From positions 1 through 64,000 of the IMG/VR virus record IMGVR_UViG_3300034060_000702: 64,000 nt of DNA. One strand, given 5' to 3'. A model generated the notes under the pieces. It worked only from the letters and a program-made list of their open reading frames with translations, was not told where the DNA came from and ran no database searches. A program made the position numbers and the translations under genes. The stretch comes from a virus. This document shows, piece after piece, positions 3,289 through 46,869 of the stretch; position 1 is the first letter of the stretch; each line of letters begins with the position of its first letter.

Positions 3289-4181
3289 TATCTACAAATT
3301 CTATTAAAGTTATTTACTAAATCCTTACTAACAAAGTTATTGTTTTTCCATAGCATTTCATACAAAAGTTCATTAAATACTGCCATTGCTTCAGCAAGAT
3401 CCTTTGCCATGTAATCATCTATTTCTGTTTGCGAATACACAGATCTTATTGCATTCACTTCACCCGCGCTGTATGTTCCAATCTTTTCAAATGTATTTAA
3501 CACAGGCTCATTAACCTCTAGATTATCATTAAACAAAGATGTTTGAGGACTAGCAAAGTTATTTTCCAATTCCTTAACTGCTATGATGTCTTCACTATTC
3601 CTAAAGTCAAATGATACCACAGAGGAATTATCTTGAACTAAACCACTATAACCCTTTGAAGAAAGAAACTTATAGAAGTTTAGGTTATTTTCTTTTCCTG
3701 CTATACTTTGATCATTTGGATTATATGTTAAACCCAACTTATTAAAGAATAAGTTTTGTAATACAGTGTATCCTTCTTTGTTTTGTTCTGTATCTAAAAA
3801 ATTAGCAGTAGATAAACCACCACTATTCTTATTAGATTCTTCAACAACTTTATAATGTTTTACATTGGTAGTAGTATCATAGTTTTCTGCATTATCAAGA
3901 ACTACTTTTTTTACATTGTAATCATCTTTAACCTTTTGAACTTTTACAAACAAATCTCTATTAATATCAAAAGTCCAATTACCTTTTCGAGATTTGTTTC
4001 TTTCAAACAACATCTTTCCTTGAGCTTTTACTTGATATGTTCTTTCAGCAATTTTTGTTTTGGTTTCATTGTATTCATCAAAGTCTTTTAGATTCAATAC
4101 TAAAAACTCTTCTTTATCAATGATACCATCCCTAGCCATTTCAGCTAGAGAACTATCTAATACACTACATACTGCACCCAT
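3288..4181 (-). CDS. Uncharacterised 297-aa protein between two giant virion ORFs
   Basis: I do not recognise a family. The protein is soluble and charged, with no membrane segment or signal peptide. It begins MGAVCSVLDSSLAEMARDG, similar in style to the N-termini of both neighbours, which also have an early Cys followed by an acidic/hydrophobic helix. The body is Asn-, Lys- and Asp-rich with likely beta strands around residues 40-110 and a helical C-terminus. It starts 12 bases after the 4674-aa gene stops, and its TAA stop shares one base with the ATG of the next giant gene, so the three are probably translated from one message. It may be a small partner or a split-off domain of the flanking cargo proteins; that is inference from position only. 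Confidence 0.75.
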   Translation of the reverse strand: MGAVCSVLDSSLAEMARDGIIDKEEFLVLNLKDFDEYNETKTKIAERTYQVKAQGKMLFERNKSRKGNWTFDINRDLFVKVQKVKDDYNVKKVVLDNAENYDTTTNVKHYKVVEESNKNSGGLSTANFLDTEQNKEGYTVLQNLFFNKLGLTYNPNDQSIAGKENNLNFYKFLSSKGYSGLVQDNSSVVSFDFRNSEDIIAVKELENNFASPQTSLFNDNLEVNEPVLNTFEKIGTYSAGEVNAIRSVYSQTEIDDYMAKDLAEAMAVFNELLYEMLWKNNNFVSKDLVNNFNRICR

Positions 4182-4193
4182 AATACTTACTTA

Positions 4194-7100
4194 TTAACAA
4201 CCAATTTTATCATTATCATACTTACTTTTTTCAGCACCAACTGTAATACTTTTAGGATCAATCGGAGCAGTTTTTGTTACCATTACTAATTTAGTAGTTG
4301 GTCTTGAAACCGCAACATATAATGCTTGATTTTTTGCTTTTGGTGTACCTAAATTTGTATTACCTAAAATGTTGTCAAGCATTACATAAGTATTGGTATA
4401 TGTAGAACCCTGTGCTTTATGTGCAGTAATTGCATAACCATATTGTAAATTACCAAATTCTTTTAACAAACCATAAGCCATTTGACCATCTGTTTTAAAT
4501 AAAGCAGCTACATCTTGTCGAAATTTATTTATTGATGAATTTGCAATAACAGGTATGTCAAATAAATTAACACCTTCTTCATTTATTAAATCTAAATATT
4601 CAACATCATATTTAAAAGATTGAGTTCTATTACCTTTAGCTTCAGAATAAACAGTTATATTAAAATTAACATCAACTTTTTTAGTATTACTAACAACTAT
4701 TAAATCTTCACCATTAGTAAAAACTGGAGATTCATCACCAAATGTATCATACGCCATCAATCTTTCTCCAGGCATAAACTGATTTTTAACAGCATCAAGA
4801 CCATACAAAGCATTTCTAACTTTCATATTCAAATTTAAAACACTTTGTCCACTTGGATTTTTTTCATTGTTAAATGTTATAATTTTAGCAAAATTAGGAT
4901 CATTGCTGTTTTTAACATCATCTACAAATTGATTTATAGCATTTGCTTCATTCTGTTCCCAAAGTAATTCGGAACCAGATACAGAATCTTTTGCATTAAC
5001 CATCATATCAGAAGTAATAACATTTACTTGTGGATCTTTACTTTTTACATTATCTGAAACAACAGTTCCAATTCCAATAATTGGAGATGTAGCTGCTTGT
5101 CGCATCTTTTCAGTTAGTAGGTAATGATTTGAATAACCAAATACTTTACTATCGGAACTTTGTCCAACTGGAGGAAGCTGTGCTCTATCTCCCATGTAAA
5201 TAATTTTAGCTCCTTTTTTCTTCCATTGATTGATTTCAGCAATCATATCATCTTTAAGCATAGACGATTCATCAATTATAACAAAGTCTGCTTTAAGCAT
5301 TGGAACCCATCCTAGTTTTCTTTTTTTTATATTTGGTTTAAATTCACCAGTTGCCTCATCTAATTTAATTGCTAAAGCTGCATCTAATGTTATGGTATTG
5401 ATTTTGTCTTTACTAAATTTTCTATCTCTATTTAAAGAATTATCCAACACTTTTTTTGCTTTGTGAGTAGGTCCAATTGCTAACACAGTACCTTTACTTT
5501 CTAATTCAGCAACAAGATTTTTAATAAGAGTAGTCTTACCTGTTCCTCCAGCACCTTCCAATACAAATTCAGACTCATTAGAACTAATGAAATCATACAG
5601 CTTATCAATAGCTTCACTTTGTCCTTGGTTAGCAAACACACCTGGAAATAACTCATATCTATTTACTTGAGGTTTATTACCAGAAATTGGTTCTACATTA
5701 ACAGGGGTAGGTTCAGTTCTAAATGGTTTACCATTTTGTGGATCTACATTTGGATTCTCATTGTATTTAGCTAATAGTTTGTTTTTATCTGCAGGTTTAC
5801 CTTTGTATCCAACAACATCAACACCTACACCATCTTTGATTACAATAGCATAAGGTTTACCATAGTATTGATAACTATCAGTAGTTGTTTGAGAAGTAGT
5901 TGTTTCTGATTTACTAATAACTTTAGGTGTATCGCCTGTGTTATCAATACCAATTTCAGCAAGTTTTGTATTAAGATATTCCCATATTTTTGGAGCAGTA
6001 TCTTTCATGTTAGAAATTTCACCTTTACCAAAAGGTTTTTCAGCACTAAATTTAACTCCTTTAAAATAACCTTCTCCAATAAAAGATTTTATTCTACGAA
6101 TTTCACGATCAATTTCTTTTTTAAACTCATCAAATTTTTCATCAGTCCATTGAGTTCTTTTGTCATCAACCATTGTTGTTATTGGAAATGCATTAGCCAA
6201 CCCTCTAATTACAGCTTGAGTTTTACCAGGAAATTTTTTATCTGTTCCATAAGTACTAGCATACCAACCAGTAGGTCCTACTAAATTAGGACCAGAAGTT
6301 CTAGCTGCATTATCTGTAAATAAATAAGCATACTCATTATCTTTTGTAACAGACTCTCTAGTAAATCTTTGCGATTCAGTTAAAGCTATTGCTGTTACAG
6401 GTCTGCTTACTAATTCAAATTCAATAGCATAAGGATAATTGTCAACATGGTTATCAGTTACAGATTTCACCCAACCTTCTTTTTCCCATGTAGCATCTTG
6501 ATATTCTTGTGTAAAAGGAACAACTTTAGTAATTCTAGTATAAGCTCTACCAGTTTTTTTATCAGTCATTCTTATTACCTTACCTACAAGATCTTCAATT
6601 TTAGAAAGATTATAGTCTTTCATCATTCTTTCTATATCAGTTTTAGCTCTAGTAGTTCTAGTTCTATCACCTGAAAGAATAAGTTGCATAGTTGATCTAT
6701 CTTTAAATTTAGATTGCATTTGTCTACCTCCATCTCCATCTTTAAAGTTTTGTTGAATAGGTGTTAATTCATCAGCTGCATCAAATTCATTAACACTAGT
6801 AGATGATTGAGTAGGTTGTGCAAATGTTTCTTCATATACCTCTTTAATAGCTTGTTTAGCAGCTGCTTCTTTTGCAGCACCTAAATATTCTTTTCTAGGT
6901 TTCCATTCACCAGTTTTTTTATCTTTTGTGTTATAATTTTCAATATCTCTTGAACCAACACCAGCAAAATTCTTAGTCAAAGTTGGTGTTTCTGTAACTT
7001 CAAAAGTATCTCCATTATATTTATACCAACCTTCAGTAACAATATCCCAAACATAAGTTGGTTTATTCATTTCTATACCAAGTTGTACAGCAGTATTAGT

Positions 7101-10100
7101 ACCTCCAAGAACAGCTGTTTTATCTGAAAATAGTTTAGCAACAGCAAATACAGCATCTGCATTAGCTACTTGATAATAATTTCTAACTTGTAGATTACCT
7201 TCTAAGGTATCAGGATATTTTTCTCCAAGTAATCTTTCTACTTCAGTTCTTGCAGTATCCATTTGTTCTTTAGTAAGAACTGTAGCTGTTACTTTAGCAT
7301 TTTTAAGTTTTTGAGAAAGGTTTGCATTACCTGCATCTTTATAATGCATATGTTTAGTAACTCCAAACTCTCTACCTATCATATCCCAAAAGGTATCTCC
7401 ACCATAAGCACCACCAGAATGATTAGTATAATCAGATGGATTAACACTAGTAGATAGTTGAGTAGTGGAACCTGCAGGTTTCTCAACAGCTCTTCCTACA
7501 GGATTAACATCCGGAGTATGTCTTAAAGTAATACTATATCTAATACCTGCCTGACCACTATTTTTTTCAATTCCATGTTTATATTTAATTTGGGAATCTT
7601 TACCCATTACTAATACATGTCCTTGCTTAGTAGGTATACCAACTTTCTCATTAGCATAGGGAGTGTTTGACATTCCTTCTAATCTAAATATTCTTTCAGC
7701 ACCAAGCGATAATGTAAGCACAGTTGGATTAATATTTTCTTTACCAACCAAGTTAGGTTCTGCATCAGTATGCATTCCTAAACCTTGCTCAAGACCTGTA
7801 TATCGATTAATTAAAGCAGTGTCAAAGTATCCTGGAATAACTCCCATTCTTTTTTCTAATTCTCTAACAGTTTTATCTAACCAAGATGGTAATGGTGCTG
7901 CTGCTTTTGTTATTGTAGAATATTTATATTCAATAGGACCAAAGTAAATTGATTTTGTATTTGCAAAATTTGGAATACCTTGTGCTGGATCAGCTAATAC
8001 TTTAGGAAACTCTCTATCCATGATTTCGAACAACTTGTCTGATTCAACTTTATTGAATACTTCTCCATCAAAAATTTCAGCTCCTGTTATTTCTTGAACT
8101 CTTTTAAATCCAGATAATGTTCCTGCACTAAGAAAACCTGAAGATGTAGTAAGTACTGCATTTTTTTGTTGAGGACTTGTTGCAACAGCATTAATTTGTA
8201 CAAGACTTTTTCTTGCAGTCATCAATGCTCTAGCATACATGTTGTTTAATTTATTTGAAACAGTTCCTTGCAGTAATGCTGCATCCTGTGTATTTACTAA
8301 TAAATTTTTAAAATCTTTATCTTTTTCAATAACTTTTCCAACAACATATTTATAAGCAGACTCAATTGCAACATTGTCAATTACATTTGCTCTAATAAAG
8401 TCAGACCAAGTAGCATTCGGTAAAGATTTATGTGCTTGATATTTTTCTTCTAAACCATATTTATCTGAAAGTTGTTTTGATACTAACTGGTCAATAGAAA
8501 CTTTTACAACTTCATTTTTATTTGATGAAGAAAGTAATGAGTCATCTTTAATAGAAAAAGTACTTTGTGTATTATACAATCCAGATACAGCCATTGAATC
8601 AACTTTAGACATAGCATAATACAAACCATTACCACTTAACATTGGATGTTTTTTATAACCCAATGATTCCAAATGTTCAATGATAAGTTCATTAGCACCT
8701 GGTTTCATTTCAATATTAAATGTAAGATTGTTGTCATGATTTAATCCATCTAAATGTTGTTTGTACTTTTTAAAGTATTCTTTAACAAATTTTGGATCAG
8801 TTATTTCTGAAGAAGAATTAATGTAAGCAGTAGAATAAAGACCTAAATCAGCATTGATAGCAGTTTCACCAAGTCCAGTAAAATAGTCAAACTGTCTAGT
8901 AGTATCTTCTGTTTCACCAACAGCTGAATATGGCATAATTATAGCACTATTTGCATATCTAGCCATTGCAATCTCTATCTTTCTAACACCTTCTAAATAA
9001 GATAAATCAAATTTATTTGTATATTGAATAGTATTATCAAAATAAGAATCATTCTCATAAGAGCCTCCTCTTTTATTTTGCAATTGTCTTTTACTATAGT
9101 TTTCATGATAATTAAGAGCAGTGTATAAATTAAGAACAGAATAATTTACAGCTTCACCAGATCCTATTTTATTTAAACTTTCTAATATTGAATCATATTG
9201 ATTACCGATTACATTTGAAATGTGAGCAGGATCAATAATTTCAGTTACATTAAATTGACCAGCAGTTCTAATTCCAGATTGCAACACAGCAAAGTGATCA
9301 AACTGTTCGAACAATTCTTGAACCTCTGGAATTTCACCATAAGCTTTAAGAATTTCCAATTCCTGTCTGTATATTTTTGAATAACCTGTTTCTTTAATAT
9401 TTGCTAATGAGATATTATGAGAATACTTATTATAGTTATGTCTAATGTCTTCTAAGAAATTAAATTTTCCTATTAGTTCTCCATGCTCACTTGCAACTTC
9501 TAGCAATCTTTTAGCATAAGAAAATGGACCATGCATTAATGTTTCTCTATTTCCAGAAGCAAGTAATGCTTTAGATTCTAAAGCCGCTGTTAAAATTAAA
9601 TCTTCATACTCTTCAGCAGAAATTTCTTTACCTTCAATTGTTTCTTCATTAATACCTACATCACTCAAAGCTTTTTTAGCCAAAATGTAATGCATGCTAT
9701 CTTTAGGAAGATCCATAAAATCTATTTTTCCATATTCAGCTAAGAATTTTAATGCAGCATTTTTAGAACCAAATTTATGAGGCAATGCATTAAGAACATT
9801 AAATCCAAAAGCCAACTCATTTAAGAAAGTTGGATTGTATCTTAACTCACCATCTTTGTAATCATACTTATCTACAGACTCATCTTCAACTAAAGCAATA
9901 TCATTATAAGTATTATCAGTAATTCGATTGCTTTCATTTTGATATAAGTACCAAATAAAATCTTCTTGGAATTGGTTAATGTTATCTTCAGGAAAAATAC
10001 CAGCTTTAAAAGCAATATCTGATTTTTTATCAGCAATAGCAGATAAAGCTTTATTATTTTTTAATGCAGAGAAATTAGAAAATAATTTTAAAATCAATTT

Positions 10101-13100
10101 AGAAGAAGCAAACTTACCAACAATAGTAGAATCAACTCTTTTTAAAATGTCAACAGGCAATGCTGGATTTGACTTAACTAAAGAATCTAATTTTTTTTGT
10201 TTATCTCTAACTTCATTTAACTTGCTTGATGCTTTTGTATCAAATGTTGTAGCTGTTGTTAAACTTGTTATTTGATTTGCAATATTTTCATAAGCAATAA
10301 ATTTATTTAATAAATCAAATTGAACTTCATCTGATATTGGAATAGCTTTTCCAGGTTCAGCAAAAGAATTTTTAATAGCCGCAGTATTAATTGGAGAATT
10401 ATCATTGATTGATAACTTCATAACTTTACCTAAGTTTTGTACTAAATCAACATTAGTATAAAGTTCTTTTGTTTTTGAGTCTATATCCAAACCATTAACT
10501 ACAGATTTATAAGCATCAATATCTTCATACTTAATTAAAGCATCAAAAGTATTTCTATCAAAAGTTGCATTTTGATTTAATACATGTAATGCACCTTGTT
10601 GAACTCTTTTAGCTTCTAAGTAGTTTCGAATAGCAGGTACAGATACAAAATTAACCGCATCTTCTACAGGAACACCCGCCATAAATAAATACAACAATGT
10701 TGGAGTTGCTTCTTTGTTACCTTGGATATTAAAAATCCAACCACCTTTTGCAACATCCACCCAACCATTAATCATTTGTCCTAAAATATCAGGAATGTAT
10801 TCACCAGCTTTGTTTTTTAATGCAGCTAAGTCAATTACTTTTTTTCCATTAATAATTTTAGAATTAAAACTTGGAAAGTGTAAGTTGTAATTTTTATATG
10901 AAAATGCTAAATCTTTTTCTATTTTACCTACATTTTTAGCATCTTCTTTTAGAGCAGCAATAATCTCATTATAATCTTCTAATGTCAAGATGTTTGAATC
11001 TATGTTAGTGTACATACCCATTCGAGTAAACATAGAGAAATACTTGTTTATTACAGCACCAATTCCTAATGTATCTTTACCAACAGAGTTTTCAATTTGT
11101 TTGTTTCTATTGTAAGATGGATCAAAAATCATAGAAGATGAAATCTTAGTTCTAATAGTTTCTTTATCATGAACAGATTGATATTTATTAAATGGAGAAA
11201 CATGAGATTCTAATTCTTTTGCAATTCCATCTACCAAGTTTGTATCATTTGGTCTTACTAAATCGGCATAGTTATCTTCTCTTTCAAGTCTTTCAACTAT
11301 AACATCAATAAGATTATTCTCTAAACCTTTAATCGATTGACCATCTTTTTTAATTTGCAAGTCTGCTAATTCAGATTTCATTGCTTCAAGTTCTCCAAAC
11401 AAAGCAGACTTTTGTCCTAAAGCATCATACACAGAATCTATAATTGCATTTAAAGCTGCAACTTCTTTTTCATTTTCAGCAAGTGCCTTTTTTTCTTTGG
11501 TTGTTAATTTACCTGAAGTAGTTTTAATTGCTTCTTTAAGTAGTTTTCTATTTTCTTTTATTTCAGATAAGACTTGTTTTTGCTCTAATGTATCTTGATT
11601 TGCTTCGATGTAATCAAACACTTCTTTTCTTTTATTAGAAATGTTTTCTTTTAATGTAGAGATCTTAGAGTTTAACTCATTGATGTCTTCTTTAGGAAGA
11701 GCTTTGATCTTCTTAACTTCACCATTGTATAGTCCAAGATTGGCCATCATTGTGAATAATTTATCCACATCATAATCGGCTCCAGACTTAGCAACAATTT
11801 CAGAAGGTAGAATAATAACATTACCTGCAATTTTTGGTAAGAATGAATGTATCTCCATAAATTCAACAGAGTTCATCGCTTGACCAGGTATCCTACAGGT
11901 AGTCATGATAAATAAATCCATGTTTTCTTTTTTCCAAACAGGATCAACCATCAAAGCATTCAATTTATCTAAAGTTGAATCATAATCTAATGTTTTTACT
12001 TTAGTTCCATCTTTACTTGTTTTAGTAATGTATGTAGCAATAGACTTACCATCTTTACCTTTTATGTATAAAAGCTTTTCAAAGTCACCTTGCAATGCAA
12101 TTTTAACTTGCATCGCTTTGATCTTTCCATCTTTTCTATAGTAACTTCTTAAACCATTAGTACCATACTCTAATTGCTCTTCAGTAGTAGCTTTTTTCCA
12201 TTGTGAACCTTTTTTCTCACTCATAGTAGAAGCCATCTGAATAAGACCTTCACCATTAACTTTCATCTTAGTTAATCTTTTATCAATCAAAGACACAAGC
12301 ATTTTAGATACTTGTCCTTCAGTTAATGCAAGAGAGATGTCATTTTTAAGAGCACTGTTGTTAAATAAGAAATCAATTTGAGCATCATCAATTTCACTTC
12401 TTGTCAACTCACTTCTAATTAAATTAGCAAGTTTTTCAGAACTTCTTGAGATGTCAGCTTCTTCAGTAATACCAAGTTCATTAAACAACTCTTGTTTTTT
12501 AAACTCAACTATGTCTTCTATTGTTTTTTCATACTTAACTAACCACTGATAGTCATTAGACTTTAACTTTTCAGTTTCAGACATTTCCTCCCATTTACTT
12601 TGAAAATCTTTTTTATCAAACTCTTGCAATTCAAACATTGCAGAAACATCTTTAGGAACCCCATTATCCATTAATCCAGCATACAAGATTGCTCTCATTT
12701 GAGTAGGTAATGTAATCTTACCTTTATACTCATTATGTATCTTGATTTGGTTTTTCAAATACTTAACATGAATAATGTTTGGTGTAAATTTGAAAGTAGG
12801 ATCTGTAGTAGTTTCTCTAGTTTCTTTATTGTAGTAATCATCATTAGGTGATTCTGATTCAGAATTAGATACAGATGTAAGTTTAGAACCAGATGCAAAA
12901 GTCATATAGTCAATCCCCTGCTCCATCATTTTATCATGAAGATCTTCTAACTTAGTTCCTTTAATCATGTTAGGAATTAATGGAATAAGATTGAATTTAT
13001 GAAAAGCCATACCAGGTAAACCATCAGTTTTAACTGGACCAAAATGTTGTAACTTCATTGATTCAAAGAACTCATTTACTCTAGTCTGATCAAATGCAAC

Positions 13101-16100
13101 TCCATTAACAATGTTGTTATACATTGCTTCTTTAACTGGCGACCATAAACCTTGAGATATAGAAAGCATTCTGTAGAAGTCAAAAGAAATAAATCCTTGA
13201 CCATCTGCTTCATTCATATTATTGTAAGGACCTAATGAATTTTTGATGTCTTCTGCTAACTCATCTAAGTAAATAGAATTAACTTTATGGTCATTGATAA
13301 TTGCAGTTACAACTGTACCATCATATGACCTAAATTCTTTTTCAGGTTTTATATTTCCAGACTTAACTCTTGATTGAGCATAGTTTCTACTTTTATTATT
13401 TTCAACAACATCTCCACTTTTAAATGGAAGTGTATTTAATGTTTGTAACATTGATGTGTCATGTCTAAAACCTTCACCTGTTGAAATAATACCTGCAATC
13501 CTTTTATGGAAATCTTCTTTGCTAACATCATATAATGCTGGATCACCTAAAAACATTGTAGTAAAATTCAAATAGTTTAAGAATTGATTTCTTTCAAACA
13601 TTGAAATCAATATCTCTTTAGATTCATCAACAGAAAGTTTTGTTTTAGCATTACCGCTAATCTCTGTTCGAACTCCTTCTGCTAAATAAAAAGTATCTTT
13701 TTTATTCTTTAAAGTGTTATCAGTTTTTTCTTTAAAATACTGGTTAATCTCTTTTGTAATAACAGATTTAGATTTTTCAACTTCTTTTAAAACTTCATCA
13801 AAGTTAGTTGAATTGATTTCTTTTAGTTTACCCTTAGTTTCATTTGTAAGCAAAGCATCAAAGATAAAAAACTCTTGACCTCTTGCTTTGTAATTCTTAT
13901 CTATGTTACCTGTCGCGCTTTTTAAAGTATTAATCCTAACTATTTCTGCAGCAATATATTTCTTTAAAGCAGAATACATTTTATTATTTGTATCTGCCTG
14001 TGTCTTGATTGCTTTAGCATCAGTAACATCAAATATAGGTTTAGCATTATTTAAACCAAAGTGAAATGAAGATGACTTATCAGCCATCCTTGGAGCTTCT
14101 GCTTTACCATAGTAACTTAAATAAACATCAGTAATAAACTTTGAATTTTCATCCAAAGACATATTGCTTAAACCTCTTTCAACTAATGATTCATATTCAT
14201 TTTCACCAATAAGTTTTTGAAAGTATTTAGTACCAGAAAAGTTTTCATATTCTATTGCTACATTTCCTTGCTTGGTACTTTGTTTCTTACCATTTTCATC
14301 AAACAATTCATTCAACCATGTATTTGCTTTTTTAAATGGATCAAGATTACCATCTAAGTGTTCAAAAGCATTGTCCTTAGTTAACTCTTGTAATGTTTGC
14401 GCATTATTAATACCATTGATTTGATGAGTAATAGAACTATTTAAAACCAATTCCGAAGCTGTTTCACCTTCAGCATTAGTACCCATAAATGAATTATAGT
14501 TGTTAGAGTATTTGAACTCAACTTCCTGCAATGTCTTATAAAAACCACCAAGCCCTTTTACTTTTTCATAAGTTTCATTACCCTGCTCATCAGTATTTTT
14601 AACACTGTAATCTTTAATTAAATCAGTAATACTATTGATCCTTTTATCAAAGTCTGTTGTTTTTATAGAAGAATCATTTCTTAATCTATTAATAAAATCA
14701 TCAAGCAATCCACCAGGAATTCCAGAGTCTTTATCGCCTTTAAATAATACTTTATTTACTTCAGCAGTATCAGTAAGATTAACACCAATAGCATTAAACT
14801 TTTGTGCAATACTTGCTTTTGGATTTGCTTCTAACCACTCTAATGCTTTTTTAACATTAAGATATGGACCATGAATATCTACTTCAATATTTGGACTTAA
14901 TTCAAATGCAGTATTCCAGTTATTTCTAACTTGAGATGTCGAACTTGAAACAGAACCATATTTAAGATTAATTCCAATTTCTTTACCATCATTTACTCTT
15001 TCAAACAAAAGTTGTTTAAGAGGCATATTTGATTTACTGAAAGTCTGGAAAAATTTACTCCATAATATTTGAGAACCTAAATGTATTGGGAGTTCCCCAT
15101 TTACCAAAGGCATTCTTTTAAGAACTTCTTGAATGATTGGATCTTTAGAATCTCTCAATACAGCAAACATTGTATCTGGATTTGCAGATGACATTGTTTG
15201 TTTAGCAACTATCGATAATACTTTTACTTTATTGCTTAATAGATGTACACCCAAAGCATTTGTTACCTTCTCTCCTTTTTCATTAAAATCAGGAACAGTA
15301 CTTAACAACATTAATATTTCTTTGTCCGCATATTCCTCTAAAGAAATATCTTTTCTTTCTTTAAATGGATCTGTTTCATCTCTTTCAGTATCTTCTTCTG
15401 CAATACTCTTCAACCCTTGTTGAGTAATAAATAACCCAGAAGAAATATGAGCACCAATGACACCAGTATTAGCACCAGTTTCACTAACATTTTTTTCAAT
15501 ATCTTCTAAGTTACCAAACTCTGCAATAGAAAAAGTTAATGCTTCAACTTGTTTTGCAACTTGAGCAATCTTCATTTTTTGTGCAGCATCTGGATTACTA
15601 ACCTTAGATAAAGATTCTTGAATTTTTAATTGATTTTCTTTTATCTCAATCAGTTTAAGTTTAGCATGTTTGTACAATGGTGTGATGTCATCAAGTGTAG
15701 TAATTTTCATATTACCATTCTTGATTTTTTCAGAGTATGCTTCATTTACCAATGTATTAACTGTATCTACAATTAATTTACTTTGAGCTGCATCTAACTT
15801 ACCATTCTTAGGATCACTAAATGCAGTAATAGAAGCATTCATTCTACCCCAAAACATATTAGCTTCAGGATTGTATTTAGTAAAATCAACTTTGTTATCA
15901 ACTAAGTCTTTGAAGTATTTATCAGTAAGTGTTTTTCTCTTAAAGATTTTTGTAATAGCATCAAGTAAATTCTTAAAGAATTTTTGAAGCATGTTACCTT
16001 TAGGAGAAATCTTATTTGTTGCATAAGCTCTAAACTTTTCCGCTAAGAATTCCTCTACAGCTTTATCATTCTTGAAATTCTCATTTGGGTATGATTTTTT

Positions 16101-18218
16101 AACTTCAAAGTAAAGTTTATTCTTTTGTTCTTTAGTCAATATACCTTGTGTAAAAGCATGCCATGCTTCATGGTATATCAATGTATTATTAGAACCTTTG
16201 TATAATGTTATACCACTTGTAAACCATTGTGCTAATGCATGTGGATGTTTCTTATCACTAAAATCTAAATCCAATTCACTTTTCATGTCATGAGCTTTAA
16301 ACCAACTTAGTGCAGCAGCTTCTGCTTTTTCAGTAACAGTTTCTAATTCAATTGTATTTGATGCAAGTACATCATCATCAGCATAATCATCAAACTCTTC
16401 AAATGTTGGAGGAGTTGGTTTAATATCTTCCGCAGGTGCAACTTCATCAGCAGTTTCAACCTCAACTTCTTTTTCAGCAGTTACAGGAACAGCAGTGCTA
16501 ACTGAAAAACCAATTCGAGGATGATACAATCTTAATTCATTAGCGGTACTTGTTTCAGCAAGAGTGTAACTATTATTCATAATATGTGCATTATGAGTAA
16601 TAGGTGTAAGAACTAAAGCATTACCTTCCATTCTAAAAGTATTTCCAGCTTTAATCTTAAAAGAGAAATTAGGTTTTCCTACAGTATGAAGTTTACCACT
16701 AGCTGTTCTAAATAAATCATTTTTAGATTTAGCTTCAGCAATATCAGTAACAATATTTTTCTTTTCTGTTTTTCCTGTATATTCTTTTTTCTGTACTGAT
16801 AATTTTGTAAAATGATTAGTCAATGCTTCTGCTAAACCTTCATCAAATAACTTAAATGCTTTATCAACAATTATAATTTTACCATCTGGTTTAAATTTAA
16901 TTGGTGAATCTGAAGCAACATTTACATACTTTTTAAACAAATCCATTCTTTGTTCAGGAGTCTGCACAGCATCATCAACAGTAAGTTCAGGATTAGTAAG
17001 TAATTCAATTAAAGATTTTACAATATCTGGACTTGTATCTAATGAAGATGGATAAAGAGAAACAGGAGTTGTATGTAAAGTATGACTAGTTAATGCATAA
17101 AACTGAAACAATAGTTTTCCATTTTCATTATGTTCTTCCTTTGTTATAACTTCAAATTGATTGTAATCTTTTACACTAGTTATTTTAGTTTCTTTACCTG
17201 AATCTTGATTTATGTAACCAAAATTAGAATTTTCAAGATTGACATCCAATAAGAAACCTTCTGCTTTATTTTGGTTAGCTTTCTTATTAATGTCATTTAA
17301 AATCTGTAGTTCATTTGCTAATTGCTCAAAAGCCATTCGCATAGCTTTACCAGGTTCTAAATCTTTATTGTTAAATTCAATAGCTCTTGCTAATTTTTCT
17401 TGAACTTTTCTAATTCTTAAATTAGCATCTGTAGCCTTAAATCCTTTTTGTTCATTAAAAGGTTTTTTAAAATCATATCCTTCAAATAAAGCATCTGGAT
17501 TATTTGTATATGTAGAAAATATAAAAACCTTACCTTCTTTAGATATGATTTTTCCATCTTTATCAGTCATTAAAAAAACTAATGCTTCAGGACTAGTAAC
17601 AGAATCTCCAACAAGATTTCTTTCTAATTCTAAGCCAGCACTTTCAATTAATTTTCTTGCAGCACCAAGTTTAATAGCTAATACTTTATGTTCAGCATTT
17701 GCCATAATATCAGTTAACACTTCTCTAACAAAAGCAAATGCTTCTGCTTTACTTGGATCTACTGTTCTTACCTCTCCTGTAAACTCTGGAGTTTGGTTTG
17801 TTAAAACTTCGACATGTGATGGATTGAACTTAGAAAAATCTACAAAATTTTCTTCTTCAGTTTCAATTGGATTTTCTTCAACATCAATTGTATCTACAAT
17901 TAATTTTTGATAACCTTTTATTAAATCACTAACAGCTTTTGTGCTGTTCATAGCAGTCATAGTTTTTGCTAAGTCTGCCTCAATGTTAAGACCTGGAAAA
18001 CTTCCATTTAAAGCAATAGGAAGAAACAACATATGCTGTACTACCAAATCAATATTTGATTGATTGTTAGCATCACCAGACTTCATTAAAGCAGCATTGT
18101 ACATTCTCTTGTACAACTGATCTTTTGATTGAATGGTTTTAGTGTTTATTAATTTTGCTTGAGATTTAAAAAGTTTTACAAAATCTTTTATTGACTGTTC
18201 ATTAATACATACATTCAT
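4194..18218 (-). CDS. 4674-aa multi-enzyme protein: zincin, crAss virion RNA polymerase, AlkB, SLOG-like, ASCH, Dda-type helicase
   Basis: One uninterrupted chain. Features read from the translation: HEAWH at residues 683-687 with an EEFLAEKF helix about 35 residues later (zincin). RNA polymerase core about 1650-2200, including ADGQ near 1672, a conserved SGSK near 1779 and the metal-binding loop DYDVD at 2148-2152, the counterpart of DFDID in phi14:2 gp66. AlkB-like 2-oxoglutarate/Fe(II) oxygenase about 3440-3570 (H3483, D3485, H3548, R3560/R3566). Rossmann/SLOG-like domain about 3600-3760 (SGGAYGGD, FAGVGSRD). ASCH-like domain about 3835-3925 (ILSGDRTRTTR). A conserved phage domain about 3950-4060 (TQAVIRGLANAFPI). 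SF1 helicase from about 4195 to the end: Walker A GAGGTGKT with K4228, DE at 4316-4317, GDRAQLPP, and the AHKAQGST and AVSRP motifs. In phi14:2 the polymerase enters the cell with the DNA and transcribes early genes. TAATG coupling joins it to the 2369-aa gene upstream. Confidence 0.93.
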   Translation of the reverse strand: MNVCINEQSIKDFVKLFKSQAKLINTKTIQSKDQLYKRMYNAALMKSGDANNQSNIDLVVQHMLFLPIALNGSFPGLNIEADLAKTMTAMNSTKAVSDLIKGYQKLIVDTIDVEENPIETEEENFVDFSKFNPSHVEVLTNQTPEFTGEVRTVDPSKAEAFAFVREVLTDIMANAEHKVLAIKLGAARKLIESAGLELERNLVGDSVTSPEALVFLMTDKDGKIISKEGKVFIFSTYTNNPDALFEGYDFKKPFNEQKGFKATDANLRIRKVQEKLARAIEFNNKDLEPGKAMRMAFEQLANELQILNDINKKANQNKAEGFLLDVNLENSNFGYINQDSGKETKITSVKDYNQFEVITKEEHNENGKLLFQFYALTSHTLHTTPVSLYPSSLDTSPDIVKSLIELLTNPELTVDDAVQTPEQRMDLFKKYVNVASDSPIKFKPDGKIIIVDKAFKLFDEGLAEALTNHFTKLSVQKKEYTGKTEKKNIVTDIAEAKSKNDLFRTASGKLHTVGKPNFSFKIKAGNTFRMEGNALVLTPITHNAHIMNNSYTLAETSTANELRLYHPRIGFSVSTAVPVTAEKEVEVETADEVAPAEDIKPTPPTFEEFDDYADDDVLASNTIELETVTEKAEAAALSWFKAHDMKSELDLDFSDKKHPHALAQWFTSGITLYKGSNNTLIYHEAWHAFTQGILTKEQKNKLYFEVKKSYPNENFKNDKAVEEFLAEKFRAYATNKISPKGNMLQKFFKNLLDAITKIFKRKTLTDKYFKDLVDNKVDFTKYNPEANMFWGRMNASITAFSDPKNGKLDAAQSKLIVDTVNTLVNEAYSEKIKNGNMKITTLDDITPLYKHAKLKLIEIKENQLKIQESLSKVSNPDAAQKMKIAQVAKQVEALTFSIAEFGNLEDIEKNVSETGANTGVIGAHISSGLFITQQGLKSIAEEDTERDETDPFKERKDISLEEYADKEILMLLSTVPDFNEKGEKVTNALGVHLLSNKVKVLSIVAKQTMSSANPDTMFAVLRDSKDPIIQEVLKRMPLVNGELPIHLGSQILWSKFFQTFSKSNMPLKQLLFERVNDGKEIGINLKYGSVSSSTSQVRNNWNTAFELSPNIEVDIHGPYLNVKKALEWLEANPKASIAQKFNAIGVNLTDTAEVNKVLFKGDKDSGIPGGLLDDFINRLRNDSSIKTTDFDKRINSITDLIKDYSVKNTDEQGNETYEKVKGLGGFYKTLQEVEFKYSNNYNSFMGTNAEGETASELVLNSSITHQINGINNAQTLQELTKDNAFEHLDGNLDPFKKANTWLNELFDENGKKQSTKQGNVAIEYENFSGTKYFQKLIGENEYESLVERGLSNMSLDENSKFITDVYLSYYGKAEAPRMADKSSSFHFGLNNAKPIFDVTDAKAIKTQADTNNKMYSALKKYIAAEIVRINTLKSATGNIDKNYKARGQEFFIFDALLTNETKGKLKEINSTNFDEVLKEVEKSKSVITKEINQYFKEKTDNTLKNKKDTFYLAEGVRTEISGNAKTKLSVDESKEILISMFERNQFLNYLNFTTMFLGDPALYDVSKEDFHKRIAGIISTGEGFRHDTSMLQTLNTLPFKSGDVVENNKSRNYAQSRVKSGNIKPEKEFRSYDGTVVTAIINDHKVNSIYLDELAEDIKNSLGPYNNMNEADGQGFISFDFYRMLSISQGLWSPVKEAMYNNIVNGVAFDQTRVNEFFESMKLQHFGPVKTDGLPGMAFHKFNLIPLIPNMIKGTKLEDLHDKMMEQGIDYMTFASGSKLTSVSNSESESPNDDYYNKETRETTTDPTFKFTPNIIHVKYLKNQIKIHNEYKGKITLPTQMRAILYAGLMDNGVPKDVSAMFELQEFDKKDFQSKWEEMSETEKLKSNDYQWLVKYEKTIEDIVEFKKQELFNELGITEEADISRSSEKLANLIRSELTRSEIDDAQIDFLFNNSALKNDISLALTEGQVSKMLVSLIDKRLTKMKVNGEGLIQMASTMSEKKGSQWKKATTEEQLEYGTNGLRSYYRKDGKIKAMQVKIALQGDFEKLLYIKGKDGKSIATYITKTSKDGTKVKTLDYDSTLDKLNALMVDPVWKKENMDLFIMTTCRIPGQAMNSVEFMEIHSFLPKIAGNVIILPSEIVAKSGADYDVDKLFTMMANLGLYNGEVKKIKALPKEDINELNSKISTLKENISNKRKEVFDYIEANQDTLEQKQVLSEIKENRKLLKEAIKTTSGKLTTKEKKALAENEKEVAALNAIIDSVYDALGQKSALFGELEAMKSELADLQIKKDGQSIKGLENNLIDVIVERLEREDNYADLVRPNDTNLVDGIAKELESHVSPFNKYQSVHDKETIRTKISSSMIFDPSYNRNKQIENSVGKDTLGIGAVINKYFSMFTRMGMYTNIDSNILTLEDYNEIIAALKEDAKNVGKIEKDLAFSYKNYNLHFPSFNSKIINGKKVIDLAALKNKAGEYIPDILGQMINGWVDVAKGGWIFNIQGNKEATPTLLYLFMAGVPVEDAVNFVSVPAIRNYLEAKRVQQGALHVLNQNATFDRNTFDALIKYEDIDAYKSVVNGLDIDSKTKELYTNVDLVQNLGKVMKLSINDNSPINTAAIKNSFAEPGKAIPISDEVQFDLLNKFIAYENIANQITSLTTATTFDTKASSKLNEVRDKQKKLDSLVKSNPALPVDILKRVDSTIVGKFASSKLILKLFSNFSALKNNKALSAIADKKSDIAFKAGIFPEDNINQFQEDFIWYLYQNESNRITDNTYNDIALVEDESVDKYDYKDGELRYNPTFLNELAFGFNVLNALPHKFGSKNAALKFLAEYGKIDFMDLPKDSMHYILAKKALSDVGINEETIEGKEISAEEYEDLILTAALESKALLASGNRETLMHGPFSYAKRLLEVASEHGELIGKFNFLEDIRHNYNKYSHNISLANIKETGYSKIYRQELEILKAYGEIPEVQELFEQFDHFAVLQSGIRTAGQFNVTEIIDPAHISNVIGNQYDSILESLNKIGSGEAVNYSVLNLYTALNYHENYSKRQLQNKRGGSYENDSYFDNTIQYTNKFDLSYLEGVRKIEIAMARYANSAIIMPYSAVGETEDTTRQFDYFTGLGETAINADLGLYSTAYINSSSEITDPKFVKEYFKKYKQHLDGLNHDNNLTFNIEMKPGANELIIEHLESLGYKKHPMLSGNGLYYAMSKVDSMAVSGLYNTQSTFSIKDDSLLSSSNKNEVVKVSIDQLVSKQLSDKYGLEEKYQAHKSLPNATWSDFIRANVIDNVAIESAYKYVVGKVIEKDKDFKNLLVNTQDAALLQGTVSNKLNNMYARALMTARKSLVQINAVATSPQQKNAVLTTSSGFLSAGTLSGFKRVQEITGAEIFDGEVFNKVESDKLFEIMDREFPKVLADPAQGIPNFANTKSIYFGPIEYKYSTITKAAAPLPSWLDKTVRELEKRMGVIPGYFDTALINRYTGLEQGLGMHTDAEPNLVGKENINPTVLTLSLGAERIFRLEGMSNTPYANEKVGIPTKQGHVLVMGKDSQIKYKHGIEKNSGQAGIRYSITLRHTPDVNPVGRAVEKPAGSTTQLSTSVNPSDYTNHSGGAYGGDTFWDMIGREFGVTKHMHYKDAGNANLSQKLKNAKVTATVLTKEQMDTARTEVERLLGEKYPDTLEGNLQVRNYYQVANADAVFAVAKLFSDKTAVLGGTNTAVQLGIEMNKPTYVWDIVTEGWYKYNGDTFEVTETPTLTKNFAGVGSRDIENYNTKDKKTGEWKPRKEYLGAAKEAAAKQAIKEVYEETFAQPTQSSTSVNEFDAADELTPIQQNFKDGDGGRQMQSKFKDRSTMQLILSGDRTRTTRAKTDIERMMKDYNLSKIEDLVGKVIRMTDKKTGRAYTRITKVVPFTQEYQDATWEKEGWVKSVTDNHVDNYPYAIEFELVSRPVTAIALTESQRFTRESVTKDNEYAYLFTDNAARTSGPNLVGPTGWYASTYGTDKKFPGKTQAVIRGLANAFPITTMVDDKRTQWTDEKFDEFKKEIDREIRRIKSFIGEGYFKGVKFSAEKPFGKGEISNMKDTAPKIWEYLNTKLAEIGIDNTGDTPKVISKSETTTSQTTTDSYQYYGKPYAIVIKDGVGVDVVGYKGKPADKNKLLAKYNENPNVDPQNGKPFRTEPTPVNVEPISGNKPQVNRYELFPGVFANQGQSEAIDKLYDFISSNESEFVLEGAGGTGKTTLIKNLVAELESKGTVLAIGPTHKAKKVLDNSLNRDRKFSKDKINTITLDAALAIKLDEATGEFKPNIKKRKLGWVPMLKADFVIIDESSMLKDDMIAEINQWKKKGAKIIYMGDRAQLPPVGQSSDSKVFGYSNHYLLTEKMRQAATSPIIGIGTVVSDNVKSKDPQVNVITSDMMVNAKDSVSGSELLWEQNEANAINQFVDDVKNSNDPNFAKIITFNNEKNPSGQSVLNLNMKVRNALYGLDAVKNQFMPGERLMAYDTFGDESPVFTNGEDLIVVSNTKKVDVNFNITVYSEAKGNRTQSFKYDVEYLDLINEEGVNLFDIPVIANSSINKFRQDVAALFKTDGQMAYGLLKEFGNLQYGYAITAHKAQGSTYTNTYVMLDNILGNTNLGTPKAKNQALYVAVSRPTTKLVMVTKTAPIDPKSITVGAEKSKYDNDKIGC

Positions 18219-21200
18219 TATTTACAAGCTTTAAAGTGTTCTAAAATATCTTCATCGGTTACTTCCTCATCTGCAATTGCAAATGATTGAGTTGTAAATT
18301 TAGACAAAATACTTGACAAGTCATCAAGATTATTTTGATCTAAAGCACTAACAATTTCATCTTGTTTCAAGTTGAAATCATTGATAACTTTTTTTACATC
18401 GGTATTGAATTGTTTAGAATTCAGCTCAACTTTATTTTCAATTATGCTGTTAAAATCAACAACTTCAATCGAACCTATTTTTGAGCTTGGTGAAATTGTA
18501 TTCACTTTTGAAACTTTTACAATTCTACCATCAGTAAGTAAAAGTTTATCCCCTACAGATAATGTACTAAAATCTTTTTGATTAGCCAAATCTATCTTAG
18601 CTTGATTGAATATATTTTGTATGAATGGTAAATGAATATCATTAATCTCATTCAATGTAACACCTAACTTAGTAGTAGCATACTTAACTAATTCTTCATA
18701 CACATCTACTAAACCTGATTCAGTTTTTATTCCAGTAAATCTATTTTTTAAAAAATCAGTTATTCCAGATTGTACTTGATTTTCAACTTTAAGTTTATTC
18801 AAAGCTTTTTGTTCTGCTACATATTGTGCTTTAGTAATTTCATTCTTTACTATATGCATCTTAACTGCTTTAGATAATCGCTTGATGTCAGTAGGAGTAT
18901 ATCCTAATTCTTTCAGTTTAGAATCTTGTGTAGCAAAAATTGGTTCATTGTTATCTACTACATCTGCAGCTGCATTTAGGATTTCTTCTTCAGTTGGTTC
19001 TTTAGGAAGAGTGGATTTAGCTGTAGTATCATAATCAGTTATAGCTACATTGCCTAAAAATCTATCACCTGAATACACTTGAATTACATTATCTAGATCT
19101 TTTTTACCTGGTCTTTTTAACACAGGAACCAATTTTAATGTAACAGGTTTACCAAAGTCTTCTGCTTTAATCGCTGTATTATGATCAAAAATAATAACTT
19201 TTTCACCATCTACTTCTATTACAAAACCAGTAGAACTACTTGGAGTTTTACCAGTCAACTTTGCTTTTATTGATTTACCACTAGTAAGTTTATCAACTAT
19301 CTTTTCATGCATAGATTGATTTCTTCCTACAGGTTGTTCAGCAGGTTTAATATCTTCTAAAGCAATACTTAAAACACCATCTGTAAAGTATCCAATATTT
19401 AAACTAGATGGTAGTTGTCTTTTTGCAACATCATCTATAAAGTTTTCTTCTAAGTAGTTTTCTAGTTTATCTTGTAAACTTTTACCTGGAGCACTTTCAA
19501 GAGTAGCTCTATCAATACTTCCTATAAATAAATCTAAATATCCTCTATGAGGAGACTTACCTTCAGCTAAATCAAATAATAGTTGCTTTAATTGTTCTTT
19601 ATTAACAATTCCTGTAGTAGAACTTACTCCAGCAGGCATTTTCAAACTATCATTAAAAATGTTTTTAGCATTTCCTTCTGAAGTTACATGAGTTATAAAT
19701 AATAAATTATCAGGTAAATTATTTATTATTCTTTCTATATCAGCTTTAGTATCTGTAGTAGTAGGGTTATCTCCTACACCACTATCTACTTTTTTTTCAG
19801 TTTCAGTTTTTTCTTGAACAACTGGAGTATTTTTTTTAATAATACTTTCAGCAATAGGAATTAAAGCATCAACCATTTCCTTAGTTGTTGTAGGATTCTT
19901 ATAAGAAGTTCTATTTTCAGAAAGTTGTTTTGCTTTTTTAATCAAAGGTTCAGCAACTTCAGAAGCAGACATTCCATCTGGTAATGCAATTACAATAGCT
20001 GTATATACAGATGGTCTATTAGAACCAGTTGAATCTGATTTTTGAATTGGTATTTTAACATCTACATATCTAACACCATTGCTATTAAAAGTTTCATCAT
20101 AAGTATAGTTGTGTAATTTTTTTTGATTTCTTATATCCACAGTGGACATATCATTTGTTTTATTATCAGAACTATATTTAATACCAAATCCACCTTGTCC
20201 ATCATAAGCTCTCCATTCAAAAACAGAGTTATCTTGTTTTGTATTTTTAACTCTATCCAAAAACATTTCAAAAGCTCTTTTAGATATTTCTTCTTTAGTT
20301 GGAGCTTTTGCTTTTCTAAATAATTTTTTATTTGCTGTTGCTTCTTTTTCTAATTCTTCTTTTGCAAGTTTTTCTAAAAAAGCTTTTGGAGAATGTATTC
20401 CAGTTCTAAAACTATCTTGGAAATATAATTTTTTTAATGCTTCCTCATCAGTTCTTAAAAACTCTTCTGCTTGAGATGTAGTTTCTTGTGATTGATTAAC
20501 AGGTTCAACTGTTTCTACAGGTTTAGTTTGTGCACCAGAGAACAATGAGTCTTCTGCAGTTTTAAGATATGCATCAATGTTTTTAAATGTAGTACTTTCA
20601 TACTTATTGAATTTAGGATTCTCACCTTTCCAATTTGTTTTAACAAACCAACCATCTTTTGCAAAACTAAATAATGGTGTCCATTCTCCTTTTGAAGCAG
20701 CACCTGTACCAAGTCCAGTAGATTTATATACTAAAAATCTTTTACCATCAGCAAATACATCTACAATTAATCTTCCAGCAACTTGAGTTCGAAAACTACC
20801 TATTGTCCATTCTGAATTATTTGCATCTAAACTTTGACCAAACTCATAAAGATCTTGAATTTCTTTTGAAATAGCCAGTTTATTACCATCATATCCAGAA
20901 ATTTCTTGATTAACCCATTCATCAAATATATCAGGTCTATCAGATTGATCATCAACTACTACAACATCAGTATTAGCACCTATTGATTTTGGTTGCTTTG
21001 GATTTTCTTTTTGATTTGTTTCACTACTAACTGTATCGCTTGTTCCCTCTCCTGTGGTGTCAATAGGGATTGTTTCTTCACTAGTTTCTTCATCGGATTC
21101 AATTATTATATTTTCATCTATTAATTCATCTATTACTTTTTCTTCAAGAGTTACTTCAGGACTTGTTAAAACTTCATCTGTAAGAGCTTGTTCAACTTGT

Positions 21201-24200
21201 CCTGGAGTCATAGCATCAACTTCATCAGAAGTGTAACCTTTGCCCGCTAAATTAGCTTTAGTTTCATCATCTAATACTTCACTATTAGTTTGCATTGGTT
21301 CATTTACTAATGCATCATAAGCATTAATAATTTCAGTACCATAATCATCAACCCAACTTTTAAATTTAGGTGTAATATTTGTATCTGACAACTCATTAAT
21401 TTTTGCATCAGCTATTACATCACCATCTTTAATAGCTTGTTTATATCCATCAATAAGTTGATTTAATAAAGCTTTAGGATAACTGGCAATCTCTGCATTC
21501 GGATCAAAACTTTCTAAATCTTCTGCAGGTAAAGGTTCAACAGCAATTTCTTCAGGAGTAGTTTCTGGAGTTACTTCTGGAGTATCTTCTTCTTCAACCA
21601 AACTGTCATCTTGTTGTGGAGTATTTAATTGACTAGGATCAATCTTAGCTTGAACTACAGATACAATACTATTGTAAACAGAATTTGATACATCTACTGT
21701 TCTACCTAATAAGTTTGATAAAGCATCAATCAAGTCTGTCCAAATTGTACTTTCTTTTTTAGGAGCTTTTACTCTAGCAAGCAATGTTTGAAAAGTTTGA
21801 TTGCCAAAAGATTCTTTAATAAAATCTAATTCTGAATCAAATGCTTTCCAGTTATCTTTGATTTGTTCAGAAGGCTTATCTTTATTTTTTTCATTTTCAG
21901 ACTTAATATAAGCCATAGTTGCTTCTTTCAAAGATTTTACTTCGGCATTAAAAACTGGATCATTCTTTAAAGCATCTGTAGTCAATCTTTCTAATTCATT
22001 TTTAAGAATCAATTCTTCAATTGAGAAAACACTATTTGTAAAGTTACTTGCAGCATATCTACCATCAATGATACTTACACCACCTTTAAATTTATTTGGT
22101 CTAGAAGAGTTATCTACAAATGAAACTTTAGCATTCTCATCAACTAATCTCTTTAAAATTTTAGCTAAATCTTTTTCAGCTTTAGTAGAACTTTTGCTTG
22201 CAATAATAGTATCTAAAACATCAGAAACTTTTTGCTCATTAGCAACATCAAATCCATATTCTTTTGCTATCTCATTGTATGTTCTTTTATCACCTTCATT
22301 AATTCGAATACCTCTACCAACTTCTCTATAAATATCATTTTCTTTTTCAAGAATAGGTTGTTCAATTAAATTATCAACTAATTCATTTAGTTTTTTCAGA
22401 GCCATCTTGTATTTTGGATCTGATTGTTTTAAAACTTCTTCTGTTGTAATATCATAAAGTTCTTTAGGCATTATACCTTTTTGAATGAGTTCATCCATTT
22501 CAGATAAATCAAATGATACACCTGCATCTAAAAGTTCTTTGACAACTTTGTTTACTTCTTCTTGATCTCTAAATTTTGCAATAGAATTTTTTACATAGTC
22601 TTTATGCTGTTCAATAATTTGATCAGACATTTTAGACATTCTATCTACATGTGCATTAAAATAATTTTCATCACTTAAAATGTCAATATTTTCTTCTAGT
22701 CTAGCATTTCTATTTTCTAATTTATAATAGTCATATAATTTAGAAAATGAGTTTTTACTAAATCTATTTATTTTTGAATTTCGAGAACCTTCATTTACTG
22801 TAGTATTATTTGGATCATATTCTTTAGAATGAACAATTTCTAAATATTTTCCATGTCGAAGTTCCATTGTATCAGCAGCTCGCTTAACTCTTTTGTTAAG
22901 TTTTTTTAATAATACTTTTTCAGCCTTACTTGTATTTGGTTTAGATTGTAATTCATCAATCTTAGCAATTACTCTATCATGATCTCCTAAAGATTCTTGG
23001 TATTGAATAAGAGCTTTAAGTTTCTGATTCTTTTGAATTAAATCTTTTTTAGCTTCAGGTGTTAAATTTTCATATCCATTTAGAACTGCTAACTCTTGAG
23101 TAAGCATTCCTATTTCCTTATTCATTTCTTTATTAGAAGTTAAAGCATTGTAATCATTAAATGAAACACCATATGCTTGAGCATCTGTTTGAATTACATT
23201 AAGCAAATCTTTTTTTCTATCTAAGTTTTGTTCAAACTCTGCAGTATCAAAAATTAAATCATCTACTGCTTTGTTCCAACTATGATGATAATTCATCATT
23301 GCATTATAGTTAGGATCATCTTTTTTTAGCTTAGATATATTTACAGGACTTTGATAATCATTTTTAAAAGTAGTATACTTAGTTTTAAACTTCTTTGCTT
23401 CTTGAACTTTTTTGTTAATTAATTTATTAATTACATCTTGAGAAGAATTTTCATTAATACCAAAAGCAGCAGCTGCTTGTTTAGTATCCATAGATTTAAA
23501 ACCTTCAGTATGCTTAATAAATTCATCAAGCATATCATGTTTCATCATAGTTTGCAAATGAGCTCTGTAAGACTCATCTTTTTTATCTTGAAAAGTATGT
23601 CTATCTCCTTCAGCAGCTGCTTGAACCATTTCATTTTCAAGTCTTGATTGAGTTGCTAAGTTGTTACCCATACTGTTGTACACAGCACCTACATTTTTAT
23701 AACCTTCATTGATTAAATCAGAATCTTTTTGAAGCTCATCTAATCTACTTTCTCTTTCAGTATTAAATGCTTTTTTATTTGTAAATTGTTTATAAGAACC
23801 ACTTTGTATAGAAGCAAGAGGTGCAGTCATAGTAGAAGTTACAGGACTCACTAAACCTCCCATTAAAAATCCTGAAAGAAATGTTTCAAACCCTTGTCCT
23901 GATTTTTGTTCTTTTAAACCATGAAGTAATGAATCAAAATATCCTCCAGAAGCTTTACTTCCAAATTGATATTTATTTTTTGCTTGAATAGTTTCCTGAA
24001 TTGTTTCTTGTAAACCTTCACCTAAATTTGAAATACCATAAGTTCCAGTTTTAGCTATTGCAGTTTTACCTAATTTACCTAAACCAGTACCAATACCTTT
24101 TTCAAAAAGAAGTTTCCCTTGATCTTTAATACCTTGGTAAAAACCTTTTTGAAATATGTTACCAGTTCTAATAACTCTAGTTGTACCATCTGCAGCAGTA

Positions 24201-42554: not shown

Positions 42555-42564
42555 AATAAATTAT

Positions 42565-45582: not shown

Positions 45583-45587
45583 AAAAA

Positions 45588-46253: not shown

Positions 46254-46273
46254 AGCATTAGTTTTTTATAAAG

Positions 46274-46867: not shown

Positions 46868-46869
46868 AA

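Follow-up and report, generated by a model that had tools for sequence, protein, structure and literature searches.

How does one open reading frame come to join a virion RNA polymerase to a row of unrelated enzymes, and do phages trade those enzymes? The window analyzed here comprises 64,000 nucleotides, bases 1-64000 of an 82,460-base IMG/VR virus record. On its minus strand, positions 4194-18218 form one ORF of 4674 amino acids that uses the standard code and runs from ATG to stop with 0 internal stops; the single 14-kb frame proposed in a preliminary description of this DNA was thus borne out. The order GC1>GC2>GC3 is kept in every 250-codon window across the 4674-codon frame, and the other five reading frames over 4194-18218 are full of stops. 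A frame error between the C-terminal domains, which that description had named as grounds for refuting it, was looked for and, given this uniform codon-position signal and the stop-filled alternatives, is not visible. The zincin, crAss-type polymerase, AlkB-like, SLOG-like, ASCH-like, and SF1 domains that it listed were all recovered by motifs or profiles, the ASCH-like domain by a fold model.

The phage is a member of the Crassvirales, with crAss-like portal, terminase, and head genes that match phage head families common to crAss-like phages and an adjacent block of giant ORFs. Its portal is closest to that of Leptolyngbya phage Lbo-JY46 (32%), with epsilon crAss phages next, which points to a deep or sister branch; a direct nucleotide search against annotated phages returned no match. 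The tail genes are followed by a cluster of giant co-oriented ORFs that is reminiscent of the crAss transcription block (PMC7886860). Upstream in the cluster lies an ORF of 2369 amino acids (18218..25327, minus strand) that is homologous to the giant upstream ORF of relatives, and downstream lies a giant ORF cut by the contig end (1..3288, minus strand) that carries a second HExxH motif (HEFSH). Homologues of the latter are about 2000 residues long, carry HEF[AGSC]H, and follow the polymerase gene in relatives. Within the head and tail block, the stretch 41388-48519 encodes several proteins with collagen-like GPTGPTG repeats as well as one large protein rich in Cys.

The first two thirds of the chain carry two recognizable domains. 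A zincin-like metallopeptidase domain occupies residues 600-790 (15849..16421, minus strand), with HEAWH at 16158-16172 (residue 683); the H, E, H and a downstream EE, which would hold the zinc-ligand Glu, are invariant in 30 homologues. A PDB profile search with this region gave no match. The crAss-type RNA polymerase core spans residues 1540-2560 (10539..13601, minus strand). A core profile built from 12 phages matched the phi14:2 virion RNA polymerase (vRNAP), PDB 6VR4, with E=3.1e-37 and with DFDID aligned over DYDVD (11763-11777, residues 2148-2152), and the aspartates D2148, D2150, and D2152 of this DxDxD motif are invariant in relatives. Conservation then continues to about residue 3050 (9069..10541, minus strand), probably through the C-terminal part of the polymerase. 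Residues 1 to ~3050 are conserved among relatives and the remainder of the chain is not, so that the additional part measures about 1600 residues (35%), less than the C-terminal half that the preliminary description had assigned to it. Searches for the RNAP core in bacterial genome bins returned mostly weak matches in mixed MAGs. A stronger match, a 3.5-kb contig (CALPIE020000201.1) binned as Bifidobacterium breve that encodes a crAss-type vRNAP core, is most likely a binning error.

Five modules follow in the tail. The AlkB-like 2OG-Fe(II) dioxygenase module (residues 3415-3570; 7509..7976, minus strand) matches Pfam 2OG-FeII_Oxy_2 at residues 3429-3566 (7.6e-16) and has the HxD...H and RxxxxxR signature of that fold, with HTDAE at 7758-7772 (residue 3483) and RYSITLR at residue 3560. 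The SLOG/DprA-like Rossmann module (residues 3595-3800; 6819..7436, minus strand) was identified by a PHROGs DprA-like profile at residues 3592-3736 (3.5e-8) together with a GG-rich nucleotide loop, SGGAYGGD (residue 3601), which is conserved along with GGTNTA; a PDB profile search gave no match for it. Residues 3806-3940 (6399..6803, minus strand) gained no support for ASCH from Pfam or PDB sequence-profile searches. A structure model of this module (pLDDT 90.7) found ASCH folds as its best PDB matches, YqfB 9kyf (E=2.2e-4, probability 1.00) and 3s9x (probability 1.00); the TM-scores of ~0.45 speak for an ASCH (PUA-like) fold, so we refer to the modeled domain as ASCH-fold and not as a Pfam ASCH member. 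DUF7831 (PF25176; module residues 3947-4100; 5919..6380, minus strand) matched Pfam at 3950-4083 with E=7.9e-6, just below the curated cut-off, and is strong in relatives. Its model (pLDDT 81) had no convincing PDB fold match and a PDB profile search yielded nothing useful; a reading of it as a Macro-like domain of small size that deals with ADP-ribose was dropped as unsupported. Last comes a Dda/RecD-like SF1 helicase (residues 4196-4662; 4233..5633, minus strand), which matched a Dda-like helicase PHROG over 4196-4662 (7.2e-73) and Pfam SF1 models at 4197-4375 and 4593-4647. The motifs of the Dda/RecD2/Pif1 group, Walker A and B and motifs III, V, and VI, occur in order, among them GAGGTGKT at residue 4222 (Walker A, 5532-5555), IIDES at 4314, HKAQGSTY at 4600, and VAVSRP at 4635. 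The preliminary description had counted six domains besides the polymerase; the five that it named stood, and the sixth, DUF7831 at 3950-4083, had been overlooked. With biochemically unrelated domains, at least two of which define a polyvalent protein, in one chain with a zincin, the product has the architecture of that class.

Pattern scans with the whole window protein or with its tail alone found no relatives. A terminase scan yielded 80 loci, and searches of their whole records revealed giant RNAP ORFs; a scan with the polymerase profile yielded 80 loci picked without regard to their tails, each of which encodes an RNAP within a large ORF. Two surveys pooled with the window gave 78 non-redundant chains, in which modules were located by local profile searches. 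The zincin lies on the same ORF in 71 of the 78, and at least one of six modules (AlkB, SLOG, ASCH, DUF7831, SF1, and NADAR) occurs in 54, in many orders; the window is the only one of the 78 with five. Examples of tail orders are DUF7831-SLOG-AlkB-NADAR (L161), SF1-AlkB-SLOG (L187), SF1-ASCH-DUF7831 (L155), SLOG-SF1 (L210), and ASCH-AlkB-NADAR-SF1 (L231). A module sometimes lies N-terminal of the zincin (ASCH in L188, NADAR in L168), and the SF1 helicase is a separate gene of ~450 residues in several relatives. The zincin-RNAP core is thus fixed and the tail is a shuffled set. Many chains will hold modules outside the six modeled. The ASCH module was found in 21 IMG/VR loci, a count inflated by loci picked in part by ASCH itself, and all 21 encode vRNAP-type chains (20 with the RNAP on the ORF, and L229 with zincin and AlkB); a search of bacterial genomes found it in 0 of 84,980 species genomes. 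Scans of this kind reach only the module's close relatives. This module may exist only as cassettes of vRNAP chains. In L181 the SF1 module is divided between the giant ORF (4280-15379) and a small next ORF (15549-16634), which is a decayed or miscalled chain end.

Comparison of module and core identities indicates that modules pass from one phage to another separately from the core. The window AlkB module is 62% identical to that of L150 (core 39%) and 23-32% to others, SLOG is 75% identical to L210 (core 40%) and 41% to L170, ASCH is 79% identical to L188 (core 42%) and 78% to L155 (core 39%), and DUF7831 is 69% identical to L160 (core 39%) and 20-40% to others. For AlkB, SLOG, and DUF7831, this spread was compared at nearly equal core identity (34-42%), and since the same module can be only 20-45% identical at equal core distance, rate differences do not explain it. 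Over all pairs, module and core identity were essentially unrelated for AlkB, ASCH, DUF7831, and NADAR (rho −0.16 to 0.08) and weakly related for SLOG (0.27). SF1 identity tracked the core (rho 0.71), so the helicase moves less. Trees were built from single-module alignments, and in AU tests the core topology was rejected by the alignments of SLOG (1e-24), ASCH (6e-88), AlkB (7e-5), and SF1 (0.003). At the nucleotide level, L212 and L216 have in common a 423-nt ASCH block of 93% identity.

Inspection of module borders brought out a recurrent peptide, TTQPSTSVN. Among 80 non-redundant chains, the pattern TQ[PSAQL]ST was counted 28 times, with 26 copies outside the zincin-RNAP core, against a shuffled expectation of 0.8. 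At the DNA level many of the borders share a joint, ACTCAAYYATCTACTAGTGTT, which is in frame, encodes TQxSTSV, and precedes two modules of the window, SLOG and ASCH. Joint 1 (TTQLSTSVN; 7440..7466, minus strand) lies between AlkB and SLOG and joint 2 (PTQSSTSVN; 6789..6815, minus strand) between SLOG and ASCH; a window scan allowing up to 3 mismatches found these 2 matches against 0.01 expected. They are 651 nt (217 codons) apart, a multiple of three. A degenerate repeat after DUF7831 (TTSQTTTDSY; 5862..5896, minus strand; 66% identity), 918 nt from joint 2, is tentatively a third, and the ASCH/DUF7831 junction of the window has no joint.

The exact joint sequence was sought in 2.9 million viral contigs and recovered in 83 copies on 65 of them, all 83 in the same frame and within long ORFs. 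Of the 65 joint-bearing ORFs, 47 carry modeled domains, and another 16 have matches to these chains or to their tails. Of the two that are left, L251 is a giant ORF that matches the neighboring giant protein and not the polymerase chain, and L247 is a 2504-residue giant ORF without a match. A scan that allowed all synonymous codons, with both TCN and AGY for the serines, removes the bias of the exact-codon search; it gave 111 matches, of which 47 distinct ones lie in chain-related ORFs. These 47 use ACT (46), CAA (46), CCA (44), TCT (47), ACT (47), AGT (46), and GTT (47), against background frequencies in the chains of 0.54 for ACT, 0.83 for CAA, 0.44 for CCA, 0.39 for TCT, 0.32 for AGT, and 0.44 for GTT. 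Matches unrelated to the chains had mixed codons and lay mostly in short frames. Among copies selected by peptide, the serines were fixed as TCT and AGT in 10 of 10, and conservation spans −2 to +23 of the joint and drops sharply to background on either side. Because the synonymous codons are frozen, it is the DNA that is conserved and not the peptide alone.

The joint also marks where partners change. Across it, SLOG ends meet five different followers, and one beginning, KEGV, comes after eleven different endings. Of 7144 ends of nucleotide similarity blocks, which are not independent of each other, only 117 coincided with a joint in both partners, compared with 0 of 20,000 random position pairs. 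The block shared by the window and L210 begins at joint 1 and that shared with L216 at joint 2, and L157 and L274 share a 513-nt block at 90% that is bounded by joints on both sides. A chain with five joint copies (L274, 6565-8952) has cassettes around AlkB, NADAR, and further modules, and several modules recur directly after the joint in the L233-L297 stretches (KEGVSEL..., GFQGYQ..., NPLVEAG..., PTIDLS..., and SNDIYSQLENK...). In RefSeq gut Crassvirales that carry similar modules, no joint was found with up to 4 mismatches allowed, so the joint belongs to the environmental clade and exchange in general does not need it.

Could these patterns arise without exchange at the DNA level? That the fused tail is an artefact of assembly or frame, as a record consisting of one metagenomic contig might allow, has a negligible chance of being right: the codon signature is uniform along the whole frame, and dozens of contigs, together with the RefSeq genomes cr118_1, cr130_1, cr272_1, and cr113_1, show these modules fused to this core. 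We rejected this explanation, which was already refuted for the class of fused chains. Slow evolution might mimic exchange, and ASCH is indeed conserved everywhere (73% mean column identity). We rejected this reading too, as very improbable, on the conflicting topologies and AU tests, the variable order of modules and side of the core on which they lie, the ranges at equal core distance (AlkB 23-62%, SLOG 41-75%, DUF7831 20-69%), and ASCH nucleotide identities that reach 93% between L212 and L216.

The joint might also be a signal in the peptide only, a flexible linker or a zincin cleavage site, with codon bias behind the conserved DNA. It does sit between folded modules and in frame in 83 of 83 copies, and the chains that carry it nearly always have a zincin, a processing role for which has been proposed in polyvalent proteins (PMC5512222). 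The synonymous freezing far exceeds codon usage (TCT 47/47, AGT 46/47), and codon bias as the cause was rejected on these counts; a purely peptide-level explanation is accordingly improbable. Such freezing is compatible with a joint that is also cut, and the joint would be a natural place for cleavage by the zincin. A more far-reaching proposal is that the vRNAP genes of this environmental crAss-like clade are in-frame cassette platforms, in which a joint of 21-27 nt, kept at the nucleotide level, is a dedicated or recombinase-favored site for trading injectable counter-defense and repair modules. We judge the chances of this proposal to be evenly balanced. If true, the cassettes would be somewhat like phase-compatible exons.

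What would such a chain do? Homologous RNAP proteins, gp47, gp49, and gp50, were found in virions of phiCrAss001 (PMC10172136), and packaging and injection of the tail is a reasonable inference from those proteomic data. By analogy with that cargo, the chain would be made late and packaged with the genome, then threaded out through the phage tail, partly unfolded, and refolded in the cell; there, the zincin may cleave the chain into separate units. Early genes would be transcribed by the polymerase, and the modules would act in the first minutes. Judging from their families, SLOG and, in relatives, NADAR would act on nucleotide or ADP-ribose defense signals, AlkB would take alkylated or methylated nucleic acid as its substrate, and the SF1 helicase would work on the template or on DNA entering the cell; the YqfB-like ASCH fold, going by the name of the solved structure, may act on modified nucleosides or RNA. 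Viral SLOG and NADAR proteins have been proposed to counter ADP-ribose-derived defense signals, and SLOG-SF1 fusions have been noted (PMC9503650). DprA-like proteins could alternatively be binders of single-stranded DNA and Dda a back-up for recombination; methyl marks could be reset by phage AlkB-like enzymes (PMC7824862). The preliminary description had seen an injected multi-enzyme machine for take-over of the cell. A multi-enzyme chain with a virion polymerase is supported by the sequence, the ASCH fold, and more than 50 independent fused chains; the enzyme types point no less to protection and repair of incoming DNA and to cancelling of defense signals than to take-over. What that description chiefly overlooked is that the tail is an array of exchangeable cassettes with a joint at the DNA level.

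A tail that is removed before packaging and works late in infection, in replication or repair, is the strongest competitor to delivery. Genes for Dda-like helicases, DprA-like proteins, and AlkB normally serve replication or repair and are expressed inside the cell, the SF1 helicase is a separate gene in relatives, and phage Cr30 has a DprA-like gene next to gp46/47. Against this, the gene sits within a co-oriented block of structural and cargo genes, and SLOG is also fused to the unrelated N4-type vRNAP of phage Pylas, a class known to be ejected (PMC12633501). We therefore consider late action unlikely, but less so than the other alternatives. The account that we favor, and hold to be probable, sees in the chain a modular polyvalent protein based on a crAss-type virion RNA polymerase, with a fixed core, a variable and mostly C-terminal module array, swaps that many of the junctions allow through a joint, and predicted delivery. 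In this account, a module that ends at a joint could be added, lost, or exchanged with the frame intact, because the joint is frozen and in frame. Fusion to the polymerase would supply a module with packaging and delivery at no cost, and the demands of host defense probably drive the swapping.

Module swaps at a near-identical joint would let one delivered chain be refitted with new tools for early infection, and the constant core with its tagged module trade offers a countable picture of phages refitting a probably injected protein. The joint can serve as a search key: the stretches from one joint to the next should yield a catalogue of candidate injected effectors, many of them without a known family, which would act before the phage makes any new protein. 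The link of both crAss-type and N4-type polymerases to the same SLOG module points to a common early need, and whether defense signaling selects the cargo fused to virion polymerases is now testable.

The fusion itself is not new, since giant fused crAss vRNAPs and polyvalent injected proteins are already known; novelty and surprise lie in the joint and in the module trade measured here. The vRNAPs reach ~6000 residues (PMC10136315), and the crAss transcription block holds several large multidomain proteins (PMC7886860). The polymerase core with its DxDxD motif is homologous to that of phi14:2 gp66, whose chain in 6VR4 has 2194 residues, compared with 4674 in the window chain with its N-terminal zincin-bearing part and 1600-residue module tail. 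Among RefSeq phages, cr118_1 gp14 (4946 residues) joins zincin, RNAP, and SF1 helicase on the same core as the window; cr130_1 gp79 (5801 residues with TAG decoded as Gln) terminates in SLOG (54% identical), NADAR, and DUF7831; cr272_1 combines SLOG, NADAR, and DUF7831 with an ASCH-like stretch, in an order that differs from the window; and cr113_1 carries SLOG, like the window. The giant vRNAPs of gut Suoliviridae thus differ from the window in module sets and order, and they lack the joint within 4 mismatches; AlkB occurs only in the environmental clade within this sample. Several giant genes of RefSeq gut crassviruses (L002, L003, L127-L129) are open only with TAG as glutamine.

Polyvalent proteins are predicted to be injected with the DNA, with zincins proposed as processors and the N4 vRNAP as an example (PMC5512222). 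They include N4-like vRNAPs with zincin, ART, lysozyme, and PBECR domains, and the window chain likewise joins RNAP, zincin, and unrelated enzymes; PMC5512222 makes no mention of crAss phages, SLOG, ASCH, or AlkB, and its passages on these proteins describe no exchange joint. The SLOG module also lies inside the vRNAP of Klebsiella phage Pylas (residues 973-1159 of 3819; 40% over 219 amino acids, 4e-37) and, more weakly, in that of Alteromonas phage PT15-A5 (29%, 1e-12), both N4-type by Pfam and PHROGs. In locus L125 the module, fused to an N4-type virion RNA polymerase, occupies residues 1097-1251. The Pylas (Schitoviridae) enzyme is a single-subunit polymerase unrelated to the crAss type, with SLOG N-terminal of the polymerase. 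Ejection of the N4 vRNAP into the cell (PMC12633501), together with SLOG in N4-type vRNAPs, supports delivery of the SLOG module.

The joint itself differs from the nearest arrangement among other phages in its setting. Lambdoid phages have boundary linkers, short conserved DNA at module borders that is thought to guide recombination. Unlike these linkers, the joint described here lies within one gene, in one fixed frame, and in up to five copies (L274).
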